Shown piece after piece: positions 54,840 to 63,601 of a stretch of DNA of 64,000 nucleotides. How positions within the stretch are numbered: position 1 is the first letter of the stretch; each line of letters opens with the position of its first letter. Source of the stretch: Frigoribacterium sp. PvP032 (GTDB taxonomy: Bacteria > Actinomycetota > Actinomycetes > Actinomycetales > Microbacteriaceae); assembly GCF_017833035.1 (NCBI RefSeq), contig NZ_JAFIBM010000001.1, positions 186,001 to 250,000 on the forward strand, given 5' to 3'. Both the position numbers and the translations under genes were made by a program. The notes beneath the pieces were generated by a model. The model was not told where the DNA came from. It searched no databases and saw only the letters and a list, made by a program, of their open reading frames with translations.

Positions 54840-56726
54840 TTAGATCAGGACGATCTCGTCGGAGCCAAACCACTCATTGTCAGCGGCAAACGAGTGCACC
54901 GCTGCCGGGTCATTCGAGTAGGCAACGATGGCCAGACTTTGCATGGCTCGGCTACACGTGACGTACATGAGCCGTCGCGTGCGGTCCAAGGACGTGTCCC
55001 TTCCAGCCATCTGGTTGTCGGTGTCGGCCTTCGTGAGGGGCTTGGCTCCAAGGAGCTTCTCGTAGCTGAACATAAAGCCACGAGCTTCGAAGTCGCTAAT
55101 CACCACCATTACCCGTGGGAACTCGAGCCCCTTGACGCCCTGGTGGGTGGCGAACGGCGATGCGCCCTTGATGTAGGTGCCGTAGTTAATTAGTTCACTG
55201 AAGGGGGCGGCGAGGGCGGACTGCCAAGCAGCGGTCTCCGTGGTGACGGTGTCGTCACCTCCAGACGACTGTCCTGTGACGAGTGCCGTCTGCACGGCCG
55301 GCGCAAGTACGAAGACGCTTGTGTCGTTTAGCACCATAGCGACCTCGCGCAGCGTGGGAGTTGCGTTCGCATTCCAAAGCCCGGTCAGCCGGTCGACCGC
55401 CAATTGGCAAGTCCGAAGAACTTCTCGGAGTGTTCCCGCTTGTTGGGAGGCGTCCTCGAGGACGCGTGTGGCCATGAGTGGAGAATTTTCGCGGACGATT
55501 CGAGCAATGCGAAAGTTGTCGTTCTGGCGGTGAGCCTCCATCAGAGGCTTGATTTGCTTCAGGAAGACCTGAAGGCCTGAGATCGAACCATCCAAGAGGC
55601 TCGTGCGCTCTGAGTCGAGCGAAGACAGCGCGGAGAATAGCTCCGCGAAGCCAAGGCGTTGAGCTGCCATGTGGTGTTCGAGAATTAGGCGCTTGACAAC
55701 CCGGCCATCGGTTGAGTCGGTGTCTGGCTTGGTTGCAGTGGACCATCCAGGGTCGTGCGTGATCACCGCCATTTGCTGGGCTACAGCTGACTCAATTGTT
55801 TCCACGTCGGAGCTAGAGGGCGCGATGAACAGGCGGACAATACCGTTGCCTCGGTCGGCTCGGGCTTGCTGTGGGTGGTCGTCGACATCGGCTCTAATGC
55901 GGTTGCTTAGTCGGACAATGCGTTCGGGGCTCCGGTGGTTCATGACTTTCACCGGTGTGGCCCATGTGGCTGGCACGGCTTCTCCGATGTCTGTCTTCCC
56001 GTCGGTGTATATGCGTTGCATCGTGTCGCCAAAGAGACCCAGGACAAACTCCCCTTCATGTGACGCAGCCACCAGCATGAATGCTTCCAGGAGAGTCTTG
56101 TTCGTATCCTGACTTTCGTCGATGAACAGAATTGGGTGTCGCGTGATGAGGCTCTGTCCGAGTAGCGGCTTGGTCGTCAGGAGGTCCGCGGTGAGGCTAA
56201 TCACCTGGGCGTGGTTTAGTGCTTCTCGACCCCGGTTCTCTCCTGCGGGATTGTAGGTAAAGCGTCGAACCTCGTCGAGAGTAGAGATGCGGTCCCGTGC
56301 GCGTTGCAGACGGTGCACGCGGTCCATCTCCTTCTTCGAGCCGGCCTTGCTCGACTGAGATTCGAGCTCGGTGATGGTCGCTTTCAGTTCAACTTCCACG
56401 CAGTGTCGGATGTCCTCCTGAAATTCCCGAATGAGATTCCAAGCGAATGAGTGGATGGTCGACACCCTGACGAGCGGATCGAAATCGAGCCTGCTGGAGA
56501 TCTCAGTGGCGGCGGCATTGGTGAAGGTGATGACGGCGAGCTGCTGCCCCCGAAGGGCCAGCTCACGTCCGCGCGAAGTCGTTCCATGTCGTACGGCGTT
56601 CACAAGAGACCGCGTCTTGCCCGAACCGGCGCCGGCATATAGGAAGAAGGAGCGGGGCGCCTCCGGTGCCAGACACTCAGCTATCTCAACATCGACGTGG
56701 TCATCGACGGACGGGTCAGTCGGCAT
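54840..56726 (-). CDS. gajB: UvrD/Rep-family helicase, Gabija GajB-like
   Basis: The 628-residue SF1A helicase has motif I LYAGAGSGKTRSL (about residues 29-41), Ia AVITFTNAAATEI, motif II FIDESQDTN (about 201-209), motif III LGLFGDTMQRIY, IV VMNHRSPERIVRLSNRIR, motif V HQGVKGLEFPRVMVV and VI RRLMYVTCSRAMQ. It overlaps the upstream OLD-type gene by 11 bases, so the two are cotranslated. This gene pair defines Gabija, in which GajB couples to the GajA nuclease to cut or deplete phage DNA and nucleotides. The third codon positions are far less G+C-rich than in dnaB. The system name is inference from the pair, not from a search. Confidence 0.82.
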   Translation of the reverse strand: MPTDPSVDDHVDVEIAECLAPEAPRSFFLYAGAGSGKTRSLVNAVRHGTTSRGRELALRGQQLAVITFTNAAATEISSRLDFDPLVRVSTIHSFAWNLIREFQEDIRHCVEVELKATITELESQSSKAGSKKEMDRVHRLQRARDRISTLDEVRRFTYNPAGENRGREALNHAQVISLTADLLTTKPLLGQSLITRHPILFIDESQDTNKTLLEAFMLVAASHEGEFVLGLFGDTMQRIYTDGKTDIGEAVPATWATPVKVMNHRSPERIVRLSNRIRADVDDHPQQARADRGNGIVRLFIAPSSSDVETIESAVAQQMAVITHDPGWSTATKPDTDSTDGRVVKRLILEHHMAAQRLGFAELFSALSSLDSERTSLLDGSISGLQVFLKQIKPLMEAHRQNDNFRIARIVRENSPLMATRVLEDASQQAGTLREVLRTCQLAVDRLTGLWNANATPTLREVAMVLNDTSVFVLAPAVQTALVTGQSSGGDDTVTTETAAWQSALAAPFSELINYGTYIKGASPFATHQGVKGLEFPRVMVVISDFEARGFMFSYEKLLGAKPLTKADTDNQMAGRDTSLDRTRRLMYVTCSRAMQSLAIVAYSNDPAAVHSFAADNEWFGSDEIVLI

Positions 56727-59031
56727 GTTCTGCAGCCTCGAGAGTGAGAGCTTCCGGCTTGGCGAGTCGCGTCGCTAGCCAGGCGAGACCCTCCTCGATG
56801 TACTGGGGCGGCGCGATCGTGTCGAATGCGGGGTCAGCGAGCACGTCGAGGGCTAGTTCTGCTTTGTTGCCGGTCTTCAGATGCTTGTGCAAGTCACTGG
56901 CGGCGGCCGTGACATCAATACTCGTCAACAAGGTTTCCTTGAACTTTTTCGTGAGACCTGCGCCTTTCAGTGTCCCGAAGTAGGTGACGTTTTCGAAAGC
57001 GAGAGCGTCCTCGAACGTCGTAGGCAAAACTTCGTCCGTGTTGGCTCTTGGCAAATTGGTCGTCACTGGTACTTGATAGGCAAACCTGACGGCGAATTGG
57101 TCATCACCCGTCAGCTCTTTAGTGTCAGCTAGGGCGCCTAGGAGAATGTCAATATCATCTCCCTGGTTCCGCCACTGTCTTAGCGTCGGGTTCCCTGTCT
57201 TCTGGCCGACGCTGCGAGCAGTCGGGGTGCTCTTACCTTCCAATTGCGGATCGATATCCGTAATCACGAGTGTCGGGATTTTCAGTGCTTCGATCAGAGG
57301 GCGCAAACGGTGAGCATGGCTTCCTCCTATCTCCAGCATGGTGACGTAGGCGTGGTGAACAGCCGGGTGTCGTTTTTCGATGAAGTGCGGTATTAGCATT
57401 CGCTCGGCCGGTCCCTCGACCAGGATCAAGGCATCGGCAAAAAAGACGTCCGCGTGCTGAATACGCAGGTACCGGGTGACGAACTGCTGTGTTTCTGTTT
57501 TTGACCCAAAAATGCTCCCTATGTTGATCACAGCTGACGTGGGAACAGGAACCTGAGTGCCCGCCTGCAGCCTCCGGAAATAGCGAAGGCTCTCGAAGGG
57601 AAGCTCGTGGGCAATGTGGCTGGAGTGTGTACTAATGACGAGCTGGGTGGTGAGGACAGTCTTGTCGCCCAGATCGGGATGCTTCCTTAGCACCTCAAAT
57701 GCTTTCTTTGCGAAGACCTGTTGCACCTGGACGTGCAGGTGCGCTTCGGGTTCCTCGACAAGTACCAGGTGGATCGGTTCGATCGGGTACTCATGATTTG
57801 ATTTCGCCGCTTTGCCGACGCGCATCCATCGGTCCCTAAAGCTCATTAGGCGGAAAACCATGGATATGAGGTTCTGGTAGCCGAGACCGTTCTGCCCTTC
57901 CGGCAGGTGCATGTCCCGGGTTGCCGGCCTGCCCGCGATATCCAAGGCGAAGGACACAGCGGACTCGTGATCCAGGCTTTCGGATGCGCTCAGCTTGGAC
58001 GCCACACGGATCCTAGGATCAGTGACACCCGGGTAATTAAGTGTGGCCATCTCATGGAAGGCGATTTGGAAAGCTTCCTCCAGGCGAACGTCGAATTGCC
58101 GTTGAGCAACCGAAATAGTCTCGAGCGCGTTGAGATCTTCCAGATCAGGGTGATCAGAGGGGTCGAGGTGGTTTGCGTAGTACTCGCCGAGCTGCCTAGA
58201 CAGCCGCGCCGTCTCAGAGATCCGCCGCGTCGTACCATCACCGCTGGGCTCGGTGACGTCACCCAAGCCGCGCTGGGCGTTGATCTCGTCAATACGCACT
58301 ATGTGCTCCAGTGGGTTCGACGGCAAGGGGTCGGCGCCAGGAGGCAATGGCTGAACCCGGGCGGCGTCCCCCTCCGGTTCCTGAAGCTGGGACGGGTCGA
58401 GCACGTAGTACCGGAGCTTCATGTGCTTGTGGAAGTCGCGTGAAAGAAAGTCGACGAGATTCTCGGGCCACAACGGCAAGTCGCCGGGCTTTGCTGGTTC
58501 GCCGCTCTCGCCGTCGCCGTCGCCCTCGTCCGCGGTTTGGCTTGTGCCCGTCGGGCGCTTCTCCCGCCACTGCTCTCTCAACGAATGTCTCGTGGACCAG
58601 ACTTCGCGGAAACTTCGAGCTAGTTCGACCTCATCCTCTGGCTCTAGGGCAATGCGAACACCGACCAACCCGCCCGTCCAATCCAACGTCGGTATGAGGG
58701 GGCTGACTCGATGGACTTCTCGGTCCTCCACCTCTAGCCACACATCCAGTGACGGAAAAAGACGATCCCATGTGCCGGGTTCAATGGTTGTTGTCGCATC
58801 GGAGGCGACCCAAGCTTGACCAATCTCGTTGACGTCGTGCCAGTGGGAGAGGGTGAGATCGTTCTTGCCGAACGCCCGAATGCCATCCTTCAAGAAGGAT
58901 CGGAGCGCGATGAGTGCCGACGTCTTACCGCTGTTATTCGCACCGACGAGCAAGGTTGTATCTCTGGACAGATCCAGACGCACAGACACAAGCTTGCGGA
59001 AGTTGCGGATTTCGATTGCTTCGATGCGCAT
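56716..59031 (-). CDS. gajA: OLD-family ATPase with TOPRIM nuclease domain, Gabija GajA-like (long form)
   Basis: The 771-residue protein starts MRIEAIEIRNFRKLVSVRLD with Walker A VGANNSGKTSAL at about residues 29-40. The ABC signature region is LPEGQNGLGYQNLI (about 376-389) and Walker B LVLVEEPEAHLH (about 422-433), followed by ISTHSSHIA. The TOPRIM domain begins ALILVEGPAERMLIP (Glu about 539) and has VITDIDPQ with the acidic pair at about 592-594. The classic GajA is nearer 580 residues, so this is a long version; part of the extra length is a charged insert near residues 155-190. It is expected to be an ATP-regulated DNA endonuclease acting with the downstream helicase. Confidence 0.82.
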   Translation of the reverse strand: MRIEAIEIRNFRKLVSVRLDLSRDTTLLVGANNSGKTSALIALRSFLKDGIRAFGKNDLTLSHWHDVNEIGQAWVASDATTTIEPGTWDRLFPSLDVWLEVEDREVHRVSPLIPTLDWTGGLVGVRIALEPEDEVELARSFREVWSTRHSLREQWREKRPTGTSQTADEGDGDGESGEPAKPGDLPLWPENLVDFLSRDFHKHMKLRYYVLDPSQLQEPEGDAARVQPLPPGADPLPSNPLEHIVRIDEINAQRGLGDVTEPSGDGTTRRISETARLSRQLGEYYANHLDPSDHPDLEDLNALETISVAQRQFDVRLEEAFQIAFHEMATLNYPGVTDPRIRVASKLSASESLDHESAVSFALDIAGRPATRDMHLPEGQNGLGYQNLISMVFRLMSFRDRWMRVGKAAKSNHEYPIEPIHLVLVEEPEAHLHVQVQQVFAKKAFEVLRKHPDLGDKTVLTTQLVISTHSSHIAHELPFESLRYFRRLQAGTQVPVPTSAVINIGSIFGSKTETQQFVTRYLRIQHADVFFADALILVEGPAERMLIPHFIEKRHPAVHHAYVTMLEIGGSHAHRLRPLIEALKIPTLVITDIDPQLEGKSTPTARSVGQKTGNPTLRQWRNQGDDIDILLGALADTKELTGDDQFAVRFAYQVPVTTNLPRANTDEVLPTTFEDALAFENVTYFGTLKGAGLTKKFKETLLTSIDVTAAASDLHKHLKTGNKAELALDVLADPAFDTIAPPQYIEEGLAWLATRLAKPEALTLEAAEHAD

Positions 59032-59932: not shown

Positions 59933-60571
59933 ATGATTGATATGAGAGTCGTGCGGAGTGACCTCTCGGAAAAGGGATGGTCACGGCAGAAGACGACCCT
60001 CGACGAGGTGCGGCGCGCTGCAACTTTGGACGGGCTGCGCGGGGCCGGCAGACCTGGCTCGAGTGAACGAGTCCTTGTGCCTTACGAGTCGGCCAAAGCT
60101 CCCCGACGTTCCCTGAGCGCGGTGTACGGATTAGGTAAGCAGCCGCTACATACGGACGGCGCGCACTTGCGTGTCCTTCCCGACGTCATTGTGCTTCATT
60201 CCGCCATGCCCTCGACGACACCTACCGTGATCTGGACCCCCAGCCGGCGCGGGGAGAACGTGATCCCGTCTGCTGCACGGCAGGGCGTCTTTACGGTTCG
60301 GGGCAGCGGCGAGAGCTTTTTGGCCTCAGCTTTTGACGAGAGCGGTCTCCGCTTCGACCCTGTTGTCATGAGTCCCGGGGACGCGTTCGCCCGCCAGACC
60401 GCCGAATACTTCCAAGACGCTCGCTCGCGTGCGCATGTTCACGAATGGGACGAACCCGACATTGCCCTTGTCATAGCTAATAGAAAGGCCCTTCACGCGC
60501 GAGACGACGTCTCAGACGCTGAGAGGCGGACAATAACCCGAATCGCCTACACGTGGGGATCGACGGAATGA
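59933..60571 (+). CDS. TauD/TfdA-like Fe(II)/2-oxoglutarate oxygenase, small form
   Basis: ATG 59933 with AGAGGGGG just upstream gives 212 residues. The metal triad of the TauD fold appears present: HTD in KQPLHTDGAHLRVLPD (about residues 67-69), and the distal His in ALVIANRKALHARDD (about 186), followed by the Arg of RRTITRIAYTW that would hold 2-oxoglutarate. This is shorter than typical TauD enzymes of 270-300 residues. The stop overlaps the next gene's ATG (ATGA), so the two are coupled. Family assignment is from motifs only; the substrate is unknown. The codon use is A/T-richer than the core genes. Confidence 0.62.
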   Translation: MIDMRVVRSDLSEKGWSRQKTTLDEVRRAATLDGLRGAGRPGSSERVLVPYESAKAPRRSLSAVYGLGKQPLHTDGAHLRVLPDVIVLHSAMPSTTPTVIWTPSRRGENVIPSAARQGVFTVRGSGESFLASAFDESGLRFDPVVMSPGDAFARQTAEYFQDARSRAHVHEWDEPDIALVIANRKALHARDDVSDAERRTITRIAYTWGSTE

Positions 60572-61494
60572 CGACACCTTGGGACTCCGAGGCGCTTTGG
60601 CTCAAGTCGCGGATGTTCGTCAATCGGGCCATGGACCCTGATCGTGAATTCGAAGAACAGGCTTTTTGGGCTGCCGCAGCGCTTGAGCTCCTCGGCAAGG
60701 CCGCCCTGGTGAGAATCTCTCCCATGCTCATCGCCCACCCCGATGACGACGGGCGAAGCATCTTGCTCGCAAGCGGGGCCGTCGACTACACAGGCATCTT
60801 TGGCAGCGTTCAGGCCAAAGCGATCTGGTCGCGCTGTGCGCGAGTATTCCGCACCTTCAACGAAGCAGAAGCTAGAAAAATAGCAGCGGGTCGCAACGGA
60901 TACATCCACTCCACGGGGGTGGGATTTGATGCCATCCCACAGGCCGTCTGGTGGCCACGCTACTGGGCACAAGCCTTCATCCTCGTCGAACACCTCGACC
61001 GGACAATCGTCGACCTCGTGGGTCCAAGTCGGTCTCTATTGGTCACGAAGTACCTGGCCGAGAACAAGGAGTACGTCGCTCAGAGGCTCGCAACATTGAA
61101 AGAGCGTGCCAATTCCCTTCTCAGTCGACACAGGTCCGGTTCTCTGAGTGCTCGACTCGAAACAGAATGGCAACGATTTGACCTGGCGACTTACCTCTAT
61201 ACGGAGCCCCGAGAGTGTGTGGCCTGCGGTGCCACGGGTGAGGTCGGCGGGGACGAAGTCATCGAAAGCCACATGGAATACCCTGAATACTCAAGCTTTG
61301 ACCCCGAGGACCAATTTTCTGATCCTCGTTCTATCACCTTGGACATTGCCCCATTCGAGTTCAACTGCCCCGTATGCCATCTCGTCCTGGACGAACCGGA
61401 ATTGCTCGACGAGGCCGGACTGAGCGACCCCTTCCAAGCCGAAGGCGATCCCGAAGACATGTACGACGACGGCCCCGAATACGAGAACGAGTAG
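60568..61494 (+). CDS. HEPN-like protein with C-terminal four-Cys zinc site
   Basis: ATG 60568 overlaps the oxygenase stop by four bases; the product is 308 residues. The helical N-terminal part contains AGRNGYIHSTG, an R-x4-H motif (Arg about 109, His about 114) typical of HEPN ribonucleases and shaped like the RNxxxH of that clan. The C-terminal part has ECVACGA (Cys about 217 and 220) and FNCPVCHL (Cys about 267 and 270), which together suit one zinc-ribbon site, and a very acidic tail. I infer an RNase or nucleic-acid-binding effector. No exact family is recognised. Confidence 0.6.
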   Translation: MTTPWDSEALWLKSRMFVNRAMDPDREFEEQAFWAAAALELLGKAALVRISPMLIAHPDDDGRSILLASGAVDYTGIFGSVQAKAIWSRCARVFRTFNEAEARKIAAGRNGYIHSTGVGFDAIPQAVWWPRYWAQAFILVEHLDRTIVDLVGPSRSLLVTKYLAENKEYVAQRLATLKERANSLLSRHRSGSLSARLETEWQRFDLATYLYTEPRECVACGATGEVGGDEVIESHMEYPEYSSFDPEDQFSDPRSITLDIAPFEFNCPVCHLVLDEPELLDEAGLSDPFQAEGDPEDMYDDGPEYENE

Positions 61495-61627
61495 GTAGCC
61501 GATACGCAGTGGTCATGACGAATGTGATCATCATCAACACCGAGTGCTCCGGACTTTAGGCCCGGCTACCGGGCCCGGCGTCAACCATTCTCTTGGCCAA
61601 TATTATCGAGCCTGCAAAGCTCGCCTA

Positions 61628-62104
61628 GTGGAAACTGTCTGGTACTCCTTTCTCCCGCAGGTGCTTGTGGCGATAGCTTCCGTGGCTGCCCTTGGCACGT
61701 CTCTCTGGAAAGAGCGGCATCCGCTGGCTTCTATCGAACGGCTGACTCAGCTGACAGACAAGATGCGGCCAGGTGCGACTCGAGATGGCCTTGCCGACTA
61801 CCGGGACCAACGCGCGAGTCTTTGGCTCCTTGAAGAGCGAGCTCCTCGAGAGGGTGGGTTGTTGGGCCTCGGTAGATGGCTCGTAGCCGGATCTGCCGTG
61901 GCTTTTGTCACTTGGCTGATCCTTGCTGCACTGGCCCCCACCTCCACCGGGACCTGGACCGCGTACGTCATTGGACTCGTGCTCATCTTTGCCTCGACGT
62001 GGGCTTTTCGGAAACGAAGAAAGCACCGCCGCGCATGGATTGAGCAAGAAACTCATTGGCGACGGCTACCCCTGCCCGTAGAAGCAAGTCGCGTACGCAC
62101 CTAG
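61628..62104 (+). CDS. Three-helix membrane protein, unknown function
   Basis: A frame from GTG 61628 encodes 158 residues; GTG 61544 in the same frame would add 28 less convincing residues. Hydrophobic helices are at about residues 6-25 (FLPQVLVAIASVAALG), 90-112 (WLVAGSAVAFVTWLILAALA) and 115-135 (AYVIGLVLIFASTWAF). A soluble loop with RASLWLLEERAPREGG lies between helices 1 and 2, and the tail is basic. It follows the HEPN-like gene in the same direction after about 130 bases. A membrane protein beside a HEPN gene could be a toxin or effector, but this is only inference. Confidence 0.55.
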   Translation: METVWYSFLPQVLVAIASVAALGTSLWKERHPLASIERLTQLTDKMRPGATRDGLADYRDQRASLWLLEERAPREGGLLGLGRWLVAGSAVAFVTWLILAALAPTSTGTWTAYVIGLVLIFASTWAFRKRRKHRRAWIEQETHWRRLPLPVEASRVRT

Positions 62105-62293: not shown

Positions 62294-63601
62294 TCAAGCC
62301 ACGACCCAGGGAGCAGCCTGAGGGTCTTCGCGCAAGCGTTCTCGAAGCACGGAGCTATCGACACCTAACTCCTGCGCACACCATGCACGCACTATCAGCG
62401 TGCATTCGCGTTCCACGTTGAGGATTTGTAAGTCGTCGGGCAGCTGACGATTTGCATGCTTGATTCCGTTGTAGACGCTCGCGGCACGATCATCCCAACC
62501 GGCGCTTTCGAACGGCAGCAAGTCTCCGATGTCGTCCAGTATCCGCCTGGCTCGTCCCGCAAAGGAAACGCCGCTGGCCTCCTTCGACCCCATGCCGTCT
62601 CGTTGCAACAGCTCGTACCCAAGCGCTTCAAGCCCTGGTCCTACTTGAGCCAACACAGCGGCCGGACTTGCGGACCGCAAGGAAATGCTGCTGACGATCG
62701 GGTCGATCGCCCGCTGGAAACGGTCCCGCAATTCAAACCATTGCCTCAGGCCGCGAATACCCAGCTCTTCGTAGGTCACTAGGTGCCGGCGCTCGGCGAA
62801 GGGGGGATCGTCCCGCACTCGGCTCGATGCAACTAGACGCCACGTGGGGCGGGTTCCAAAAACCTTGTCCTCCGGGTGGAGGACTGAATAGGTGATTACG
62901 TTCTCATCACTCCAGGCGGATATGACGAGCAAATCGCGCAGGGCTTTTGGGGCACGTAGGTGAGTAGCCCATTCAGCGGGCTCAGTAGTTGTTGTCTGCA
63001 CCCAGAGAGAGCTTCCCAGTGTGATCTCGTCGGGATCTATAGGCTCCTTGACTATTGCGACGGGCTGCAATGCCATCCGCATGCCGCCCCATACCCCGAG
63101 ATCGATGTCTTCGGACAGTTCCTTTCGATACGCGAGCGCCCCACTCGAATTTTCCTCATGAACCCATGAATGGGCTCGCACCCAAGATCGCAAATGCGAG
63201 ACAGTCGACCTCAAGCCAGCGACGGAGTCGAAATCAACCGGTGCCGGTGCGCCAAAGACAGCCTCTTGTACAAGAACTCGTCCCGTTCCGGGACCACCTA
63301 AGTTCGTTGTATAACCGCCTTTGTGGCACCCCAGAAGGCCGACCACTCCTCGAGCATCTCGGAAGGTAAGCCGTCGCGGAGGGACGGGCTCAGGCTCGTC
63401 GACGGAACTCGGAAAATCCCGTGATGAACGGAACCACCCTACAAATGAGCCTGAGTCGGACGAAGGCCACCAAACGGTCAAGACAATGCCTTCGCTGGTG
63501 CGCTCCAGGCTGACGCTAGATTCAGCCGAGTCCTCGCCTAAGAGCTGGCCAAAGCGACGATCACCGATGGCGAGCGTGTTTCGACTCATTAGCGGATTCA
63601 C
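62294..63601 (-). CDS. ApeA-like HEPN domain protein, predicted abortive-infection RNase
   Basis: The 435-residue protein (GTG 63601; ATG 63589 is an alternative) has a beta-rich N-terminal half with RLTFRDARGVVGLLGCHKGG and a VWWPSSDSGSFVGWF strand pattern, like the ApeA N-terminal domain. The C-terminal half is helical and contains DDRAASVYNGIKHANRQLP (about residues 370-388), the N-x3-H form of the HEPN active site (His about 382). ApeA proteins are single-gene phage-defence HEPN RNases. The assignment rests on architecture and short motifs, so a related HEPN family is possible. Confidence 0.6.
   Translation of the reverse strand: MNPLMSRNTLAIGDRRFGQLLGEDSAESSVSLERTSEGIVLTVWWPSSDSGSFVGWFRSSRDFPSSVDEPEPVPPRRLTFRDARGVVGLLGCHKGGYTTNLGGPGTGRVLVQEAVFGAPAPVDFDSVAGLRSTVSHLRSWVRAHSWVHEENSSGALAYRKELSEDIDLGVWGGMRMALQPVAIVKEPIDPDEITLGSSLWVQTTTTEPAEWATHLRAPKALRDLLVISAWSDENVITYSVLHPEDKVFGTRPTWRLVASSRVRDDPPFAERRHLVTYEELGIRGLRQWFELRDRFQRAIDPIVSSISLRSASPAAVLAQVGPGLEALGYELLQRDGMGSKEASGVSFAGRARRILDDIGDLLPFESAGWDDRAASVYNGIKHANRQLPDDLQILNVERECTLIVRAWCAQELGVDSSVLRERLREDPQAAPWVVA

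Follow-up and report, generated by a model that had tools for sequence, protein, structure and literature searches.

An oxygenase gene joined to a HEPN gene

A 64,000-nucleotide stretch of the single-contig, 3.33-Mb genome of Frigoribacterium sp. PvP032 (NZ_JAFIBM010000001.1, positions 186,001 to 250,000; hereafter the window) carries a gene for a predicted oxidation enzyme that overlaps a gene for a predicted HEPN protein, and this arrangement raises the question of what the one protein might do for the other. Many phage-defence systems use HEPN effectors, and how each of these is held off and released is often unclear. The answer that we prefer, and that we hold only tentatively, is that the two genes (A and B) form a two-gene system in which A binds, and most likely hydroxylates, the C-terminal tail of B and would thereby determine the state of a putative HEPN RNase. 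The features on which the argument depends are as follows.

54840-56726, minus strand: GajB of a Gabija pair, upstream of A and divergent from the A-B pair
56716-59031, minus strand: GajA of the same Gabija pair
59933..60571, plus strand: gene A, Fe(II)/2-oxoglutarate (2OG) oxygenase, 212 aa from ATG
60568..61494, plus strand: gene B, HEPN-zinc protein, 308 aa from ATG
60892..60909, plus strand: HEPN motif of B, R109-N-G-Y-I-H114
61216..61377, plus strand: split zinc-type site of B, C217xxC220 ... C267xxC270
61480..61491, plus strand: tail of B, Y305-E-N-E308 (consensus YGND, free C-terminus)
61544-62104, plus strand: ORF for a small membrane protein with a GTG start
62294-63601, minus strand: ApeA-like gene, downstream

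The stop codon of A and the start codon of B share the four bases ATGA, exactly as a preliminary description made from the letters of this DNA had stated. The same description placed the genes between a Gabija-like pair and an ApeA-like gene, and this also holds. PADLOC matches GajA with an E-value of 4e-264 and GajB with an E-value of 9e-226, and the gene on the other side is matched by Pfam ApeA_NTD1 above the cut-off and by HEPN_Apea under it, and is without a PADLOC match.

The preliminary description had further proposed a module of three genes, with the small membrane protein as its third member. This ORF does run in the same direction, begins 49 bases past B and has three hydrophobic peaks, which is what one would expect if it encoded the effector of a three-gene unit. 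However, none of the ORFs at 92 other loci is related to it, and a search of 119 further genomes from the family likewise yielded no relative. We regard a role for it as the effector as very improbable. The conserved unit is two genes, not three.

The two genes travel together

There are 93 sources of B in our collection: 80 loci kept from the 82 relatives that an alignment of B detected in a scan of GTDB species genomes, one viral contig, 11 copies from plasmids and genomes, and the window itself. These are not fully independent, because two loci were fetched twice (L003 is L016, and L004 is L047) and the B proteins of L066 and L067 are identical. The best relative found in the scan of species genomes is from Agreia. 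In 91 of the 93 sources, B is immediately preceded on its own strand by an A gene or a remnant of one, and the other two are a locus in which B is split (L023) and a fragment (L012). The spacing picked by script between the two genes is -4 in 52 sources and -8 in 23.

The same pattern is seen when whole genomes are searched. Of 394 Actinomycetes genomes, the seven that have A (E <= 1e-15) are also the seven that have full-length B (E <= 1e-39), and the two genes are adjacent in each of them. Thus, the homologues do co-occur, a point on which the preliminary description had let its proposal depend. One genome (G187) has an additional partial match to A (L126:3816-4445) on a 4.8-kb contig without a B match. 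The pair is not frequent, and is present in 3 of 120 genomes of the family (one with a truncated B) and in 7 of 394 of the class.

Residue counts in this report refer to 75 aligned rows, which are the 93 sources minus 18. Those set aside are the plasmid and genome copies L003-L013, together with L023, L040, L047, L052, L054, L088 and L091, which are truncated, broken, unclear in their ORF start or located at a contig end. According to the record titles, the rows come from Actinomycetota, Pseudomonadota, Verrucomicrobiota, Planctomycetota, Bdellovibrionota and Bacillota, with a single row each for the last three. The Planctomycetota row is a bin that is near-identical to a Marinobacter copy, and a bin titled Akkermansia sits within Burkholderiales; binning error or recent transfer is possible for both.

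Path distances on the A tree and the B tree are correlated (r 0.90 overall, 0.73 in the 32 actinobacterial rows and 0.88 in the 43 others), which indicates that the two genes travel together. A and B form a near-obligate pair with common descent. We take them for a single system of two genes, for which mobile islands and plasmids are the carriers. There is no match to A or B in 50,697 phage records, and a viral collection yielded one contig with the pair (L094).

Protein A resembles enzymes that act on free amino acids

Protein A is a short Fe(II)/2OG oxygenase of the TauD/TfdA, clavaminate-synthase-like type with the residues H73-T-D75, H188, R199 and R203. The HxD motif and distal histidine of TauD-like enzymes had been read from the sequence in the preliminary description, and they are borne out by the alignment and by a Pfam TauD match that barely clears its cut-off (28.1 versus 27 bits). 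H73 is present in 75 of 75 rows, as is an aspartate or glutamate at position 75, and both H188 and R199 are present in 74, the sole exception being a frame-broken copy (L024). No PADLOC family matches A at E <= 1.

The predicted fold of A is the double-stranded beta-helix of the TauD/clavaminate-synthase family that had been expected for it, and the AlphaFold2 model is nearest to AsnO, an asparagine oxygenase. More generally, the nearest folds and profiles are those of asparagine, arginine and lysine hydroxylases and of clavaminate synthase (the AsnO, VioC and KDO1 group). The likeness to this group extends over the fold of all of A, the H-x-D/E...H residues and an arginine located 11 positions past the distal histidine. 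These closest enzymes, as their PDB titles also indicate, hydroxylate free amino acids, which bear a free alpha-carboxylate. A differs from them in that its gene is coupled to a HEPN gene and in its length of 212 aa, compared with roughly 310-340 in the solved chains. Compared with the solved AsnO it lacks about 100 residues, and its structure may be more open.

Protein B has a HEPN domain and a zinc-type module

Protein B consists of an N-terminal HEPN domain (RNxxxH) and a C-terminal CxxC..CxxC module. The R-x4-H motif and the split pair of CxxC elements that had first drawn attention to this protein are strikingly well preserved: R109, N110, H114 and all four cysteines are the same in every one of the 75 rows. 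The motif also falls within the R-x4-6-H pattern of the HEPN superfamily in every row. Conservation of the motifs in A and B is far beyond chance.

A comparison of predicted folds (VIA) gives B the HEPN helical bundle, in agreement with the earlier proposal, with AbiV structures among the fold matches. Other searches are less telling. Foldseek returns nothing for B at E <= 0.001 and HEPN entries are just among its weak matches, nothing convincing is found when a sequence profile of B is compared with the PDB, and B of the window has no match at E <= 1 in Pfam, PADLOC, PHROG or NCBIfam. With Pfam, the 75 relatives of B give weak, mixed zinc-ribbon matches and one Apea-HEPN match among the matches listed, and the CxxC..CxxC module has no name in the family libraries. 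From the motif and predicted fold, we infer that B is an effector of the HEPN ribonuclease type.

The C-terminus of B is nearly fixed

The feature of this system that is new relative to the preliminary description is the conserved C-terminus of B. There are 64 rows of the 75 that end in YGND, three that end in YGNC, two in YENE (the window and L014) and two in YGNE, and the endings YNNE, YDNE, YMDE and YNND occur in single rows. The tyrosine is present in 75 of 75 rows and the asparagine in 74, and in none of the 75 does the protein extend past the tail. Conservation averages 3.99 bits at residues 305-308, versus 2.67 bits at residues 1-150 and 1.72 bits at residues 285-300, and the tail is preceded by a variable linker. 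We had considered whether the tail might be the best conserved part of the protein, and this was rejected because two other stretches of four residues score higher, namely the one around LELL in the HEPN helix, with 4.27 bits, and the first CxxC, with 4.13 bits. The tail ranks third.

There are departures from this pattern. The paired B proteins of L141-L144 end in YEDDNNER, and the last piece of the frame-broken L145 ends in NNERF. Thus, both the YGND sequence and its position at the very end admit exceptions. Tails without the asparagine are found in L018 (YMDE) and L146 (YQDE). The latter locus, on an Agrobacterium pAt plasmid, has an unannotated oxygenase gene (L146:5037-5615) located 5' of the HEPN-zinc gene, and this oxygenase is without the arginine at +11 from the distal histidine. 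An apparent covariation between residue 144 of A and the tail, suggestive by eye, comes down to 2-3 independent contrasts on the tree.

One alternative is that A modifies RNA, such as tRNA or phage RNA, and that B binds RNA or cleaves it in its modified or unmodified state. A HEPN domain combined with a zinc module would fit RNA binding, and the near-obligate pairing of the two genes is compatible with this reading. However, the nearest solved relatives of A act, by their titles, on free amino acids or similar small molecules rather than nucleic acids, and the C-terminal tail is left unexplained. We therefore consider this alternative quite unlikely.

Intact relatives of B without an oxygenase gene lack the tail

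There are 17 intact loci for B-like HEPN-zinc proteins that have no A-like match within 1 kb, of which 8 are from genomes and 9 from 41 plasmid records that match B. The upstream sequence covered is 144 bases at L119 and 525 bases at L118. No A is found at E <= 1e-15 anywhere in the five Actinomycetes genomes behind L115, L118, L119, L120, L121 and L124. These 17 proteins retain R[ND]xxxH and two CxxC elements, and the ending Yx[ND][DEC] is found in none of them. On a tree of 57 B proteins, this ending is present in 39 of 42 paired and in 0 of 15 solitary proteins. Paired and solitary proteins are two clades separated by one change, and the association of tail and oxygenase consequently amounts to a single evolutionary event.

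Three loci have a broken B that ends in YGND or YGDE with no A match beside it (L023, L123 and L125, the last of which starts at a contig end), and these are probably decayed pairs. The solitary HEPN-zinc proteins of Streptomyces plasmids and actinobacterial genomes (L120, L121, L132-L139) are like B in having, by profile match, a HEPN domain and CxxC..CxxC, and they differ from it in that no oxygenase gene was found beside them and in the absence of a YGND tail. It is possible that they are a separate HEPN family. They are annotated as hypothetical in the fetched plasmid records. Streptomyces accounts for 31 of the 41 plasmid records that match B, and paired copies occur in a few of these 41.

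The tail may instead be a docking or plug peptide that occupies the active site of A, such that A and B restrain each other until 2OG, O2, iron or a phage factor opens the complex. The near-fixed free C-terminus with its invariant tyrosine and near-invariant asparagine is consistent with this, as are the intact oxygenase-less relatives without the tail. However, the conserved H-x-D/E, H and R residues of A point to catalysis and would be less needed for mere docking, which leaves this reading rather unlikely.

A possible mechanism

In the mechanism that we favour, the tail is a substrate. The zinc module of B would hold out the short acidic peptide Tyr-Gly-Asn-Asp (Tyr-Glu-Asn-Glu in the window), and A would be a stripped-down relative of the amino-acid beta-hydroxylases AsnO, VioC and KDO1 and of clavaminate synthase. 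The tail, with its free terminal carboxylate, would enter the site in which the relatives of A hold a free amino acid, and A would most likely hydroxylate the asparagine or a neighbouring residue. Perhaps the modification then sets whether B cuts RNA. What leads us to the tail is that the relatives of A act on amino acids with a free alpha-carboxylate, and that the Asn-Asp at the C-terminus of B likewise ends in a free carboxylate. We infer the identity of the substrate, the reaction and the benefit, which might be defence or plasmid maintenance. The preliminary description had already suggested that an oxygenase could control a HEPN RNase, and the finding of an A-associated tail on B strengthens this idea.

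As to the direction of such control, the order of the genes leans slightly towards A restraining B, and the broken copies do not confirm this. B is broken and A is whole or nearly so at three loci (L004, which is L047, L013 and L145), and A is broken and B is whole at another three (L011, L024 and L040), with draft assemblies among these loci. An asymmetry of broken genes, considered as evidence for an antitoxin, was rejected given this tally of 3 versus 3. The loci with a broken A and a whole B indicate that A is not visibly needed for B to be harmless, and the idea of A as a strict antitoxin gains nothing from the broken copies.

There is a broader form of the proposed mechanism, in which the pair is a widespread immune or addiction module wherein A hydroxylates the terminal asparagine or aspartate of B, and oxygen, iron and 2OG license or release RNA cleavage. 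We regard this form as possible and somewhat doubtful.

Relation to known systems

The closest parallel to the proposed mechanism is the type VII system HEPN-MNT (HepT-MntA), which like A-B is a tight two-gene unit with a HEPN fold carrying R-x4-H, an enzyme as partner and the partner gene placed first. In HEPN-MNT the partner enzyme covalently modifies the HEPN toxin, and in A-B oxygenase chemistry would take the place of AMPylation. The tyrosine of HEPN toxins that can be modified by MNT is located directly past the motif, in R-x4-6-H-x-Y. The residue of B at H+2 is glycine in 39 rows, alanine in 24, serine in 7, proline in 3, and threonine and isoleucine in one each. Thus, A-B differs from HEPN-MNT in that the modified tyrosine is absent from B (0 of 75 rows), in that the partner is a TauD-type Fe(II)/2OG oxygenase instead of a nucleotidyltransferase, and in that B has an additional zinc module and a conserved C-terminus.

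AbiV and ApeA are HEPN proteins that, like B, occur in phage-defence settings, and B of the window has no Pfam or PADLOC match to them. We know of no oxygenase partner for HEPN proteins of the AbiV or ApeA type.

Partner enzymes that modify HEPN proteins are known, as two reports describe the AMPylation of HEPN toxins by MNT antitoxins (PMC7641770, PMC11586414). In parts of an earlier survey (PMC3710099, Anantharaman et al. 2013), modification of HEPN toxins by the MNT partner is predicted and the antitoxin gene is said to come usually first in toxin-antitoxin dyads; the text of this survey has no words beginning with oxygenase, dioxygenase, hydroxylase, TauD or 2-oxoglutarate. DS-11, a DefensePredictor system, is described in part of PMC13092281 as a HEPN nuclease with a regulatory part that probably governs its activity. 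This resembles what we propose for A-B, except that the regulatory part is a CBS domain within one protein. The main text of PMC13092281 has no words beginning with oxygenase, dioxygenase, TauD, hydroxylase or oxoglutarate. Passages of PMC8195603 and PMC7159879 are unrelated to HEPN/oxygenase pairing. We found no description of a HEPN/TauD or HEPN/2OG pair in the open full texts searched, a set that lies apart from bioRxiv and most subscription papers.

Whatever its mechanism, the pair links an oxidation enzyme to a HEPN protein in distant bacteria, and the near-fixed C-terminal peptide is an obvious contact point. If the tail is the substrate of A, then this would be a new way of controlling a HEPN protein, and post-translational hydroxylation would be a switch in bacterial conflict. 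Signalling by oxygenases is best known from animal oxygen sensing. Hydroxylation of the tail would give it a counterpart in bacteria, with antiviral or plasmid conflict as the setting and 2OG, iron or oxygen as possible infection signals.

Genomic setting

Many carriers of A-B are plasmids, and a clustering of neighbouring ORFs places an integrase-type cluster at 14 loci and type I restriction (HsdR) at 6. The plasmids and integrases, together with the position of A before B, which is the usual order for an antitoxin gene, invite the reading that the pair is a toxin-antitoxin module for the addiction of plasmids or islands, without an antiphage role. However, a whole B shows no need for A at the broken-copy loci, and several copies adjoin named defence genes. 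We judge this reading unlikely, and continue to favour modification of the tail of B by A, which could serve either defence or plasmid maintenance.

Proximity to defence genes had been claimed for the window, and the claim stands in the form of examples, since named defence genes (among them Gabija, AbiV and AbiH annotations, and RT_UG23) are found near many copies. A PADLOC scan covered 213 of the 225 neighbouring ORFs that were picked (96 actinobacterial and 117 other), and the matches listed include type IIG, type IV and type I restriction, Lamassu, DISARM and Old. A control with the 34 ORFs in the first 53 kb of the window also matched 37 families, mostly PD-T4-6 models with 2 members each among the matches listed. 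Raw PADLOC tallies thus overcount; they were rejected as proof of defence enrichment, and named systems were used instead. The association of A-B with defence rests on individual examples and not on a statistic. In this ordinary-looking part (window:1-53000), PD-T4-6 and MkoA models match 2 of the 34 ORFs.

One of these examples is a Ketogulonicigenium plasmid (L143:1-4906), in which GajA, GajB, the oxygenase and the HEPN-zinc protein are all encoded in one direction. Here the Gabija pair is located directly upstream of A-B on the same strand, and this is a second Gabija association, different from that of the window. In Sinorhizobium, the pair has neighbours annotated as AbiV and AbiH, although PADLOC does not match that AbiV. 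A divergent oxygenase-HEPN pair has a reverse transcriptase of the RT_UG23 type about 50 bases upstream of A (L122:6013-9624).

A large ATPase is encoded 9-15 bases upstream of A at seven loci of the neighbour clustering, and its annotated members belong to the TrlF family. In L085, L007 and L079 the PADLOC Ppl model matches the ATPase only over the C-terminal part of the model, and in L008, which has its ATPase gene after B, the match covers the entire model. ATPases of the TrlF type precede A in the proteobacterial copies L007, L009, L010, L056, L069, L077, L079 and L085, of which L009 is outside the clustering and had its spacing taken separately. In the annotated plasmids L007, L009 and L010, a GIY-YIG gene is located downstream of the pair, and the ATPase, A-B and GIY-YIG genes possibly form a larger operon.
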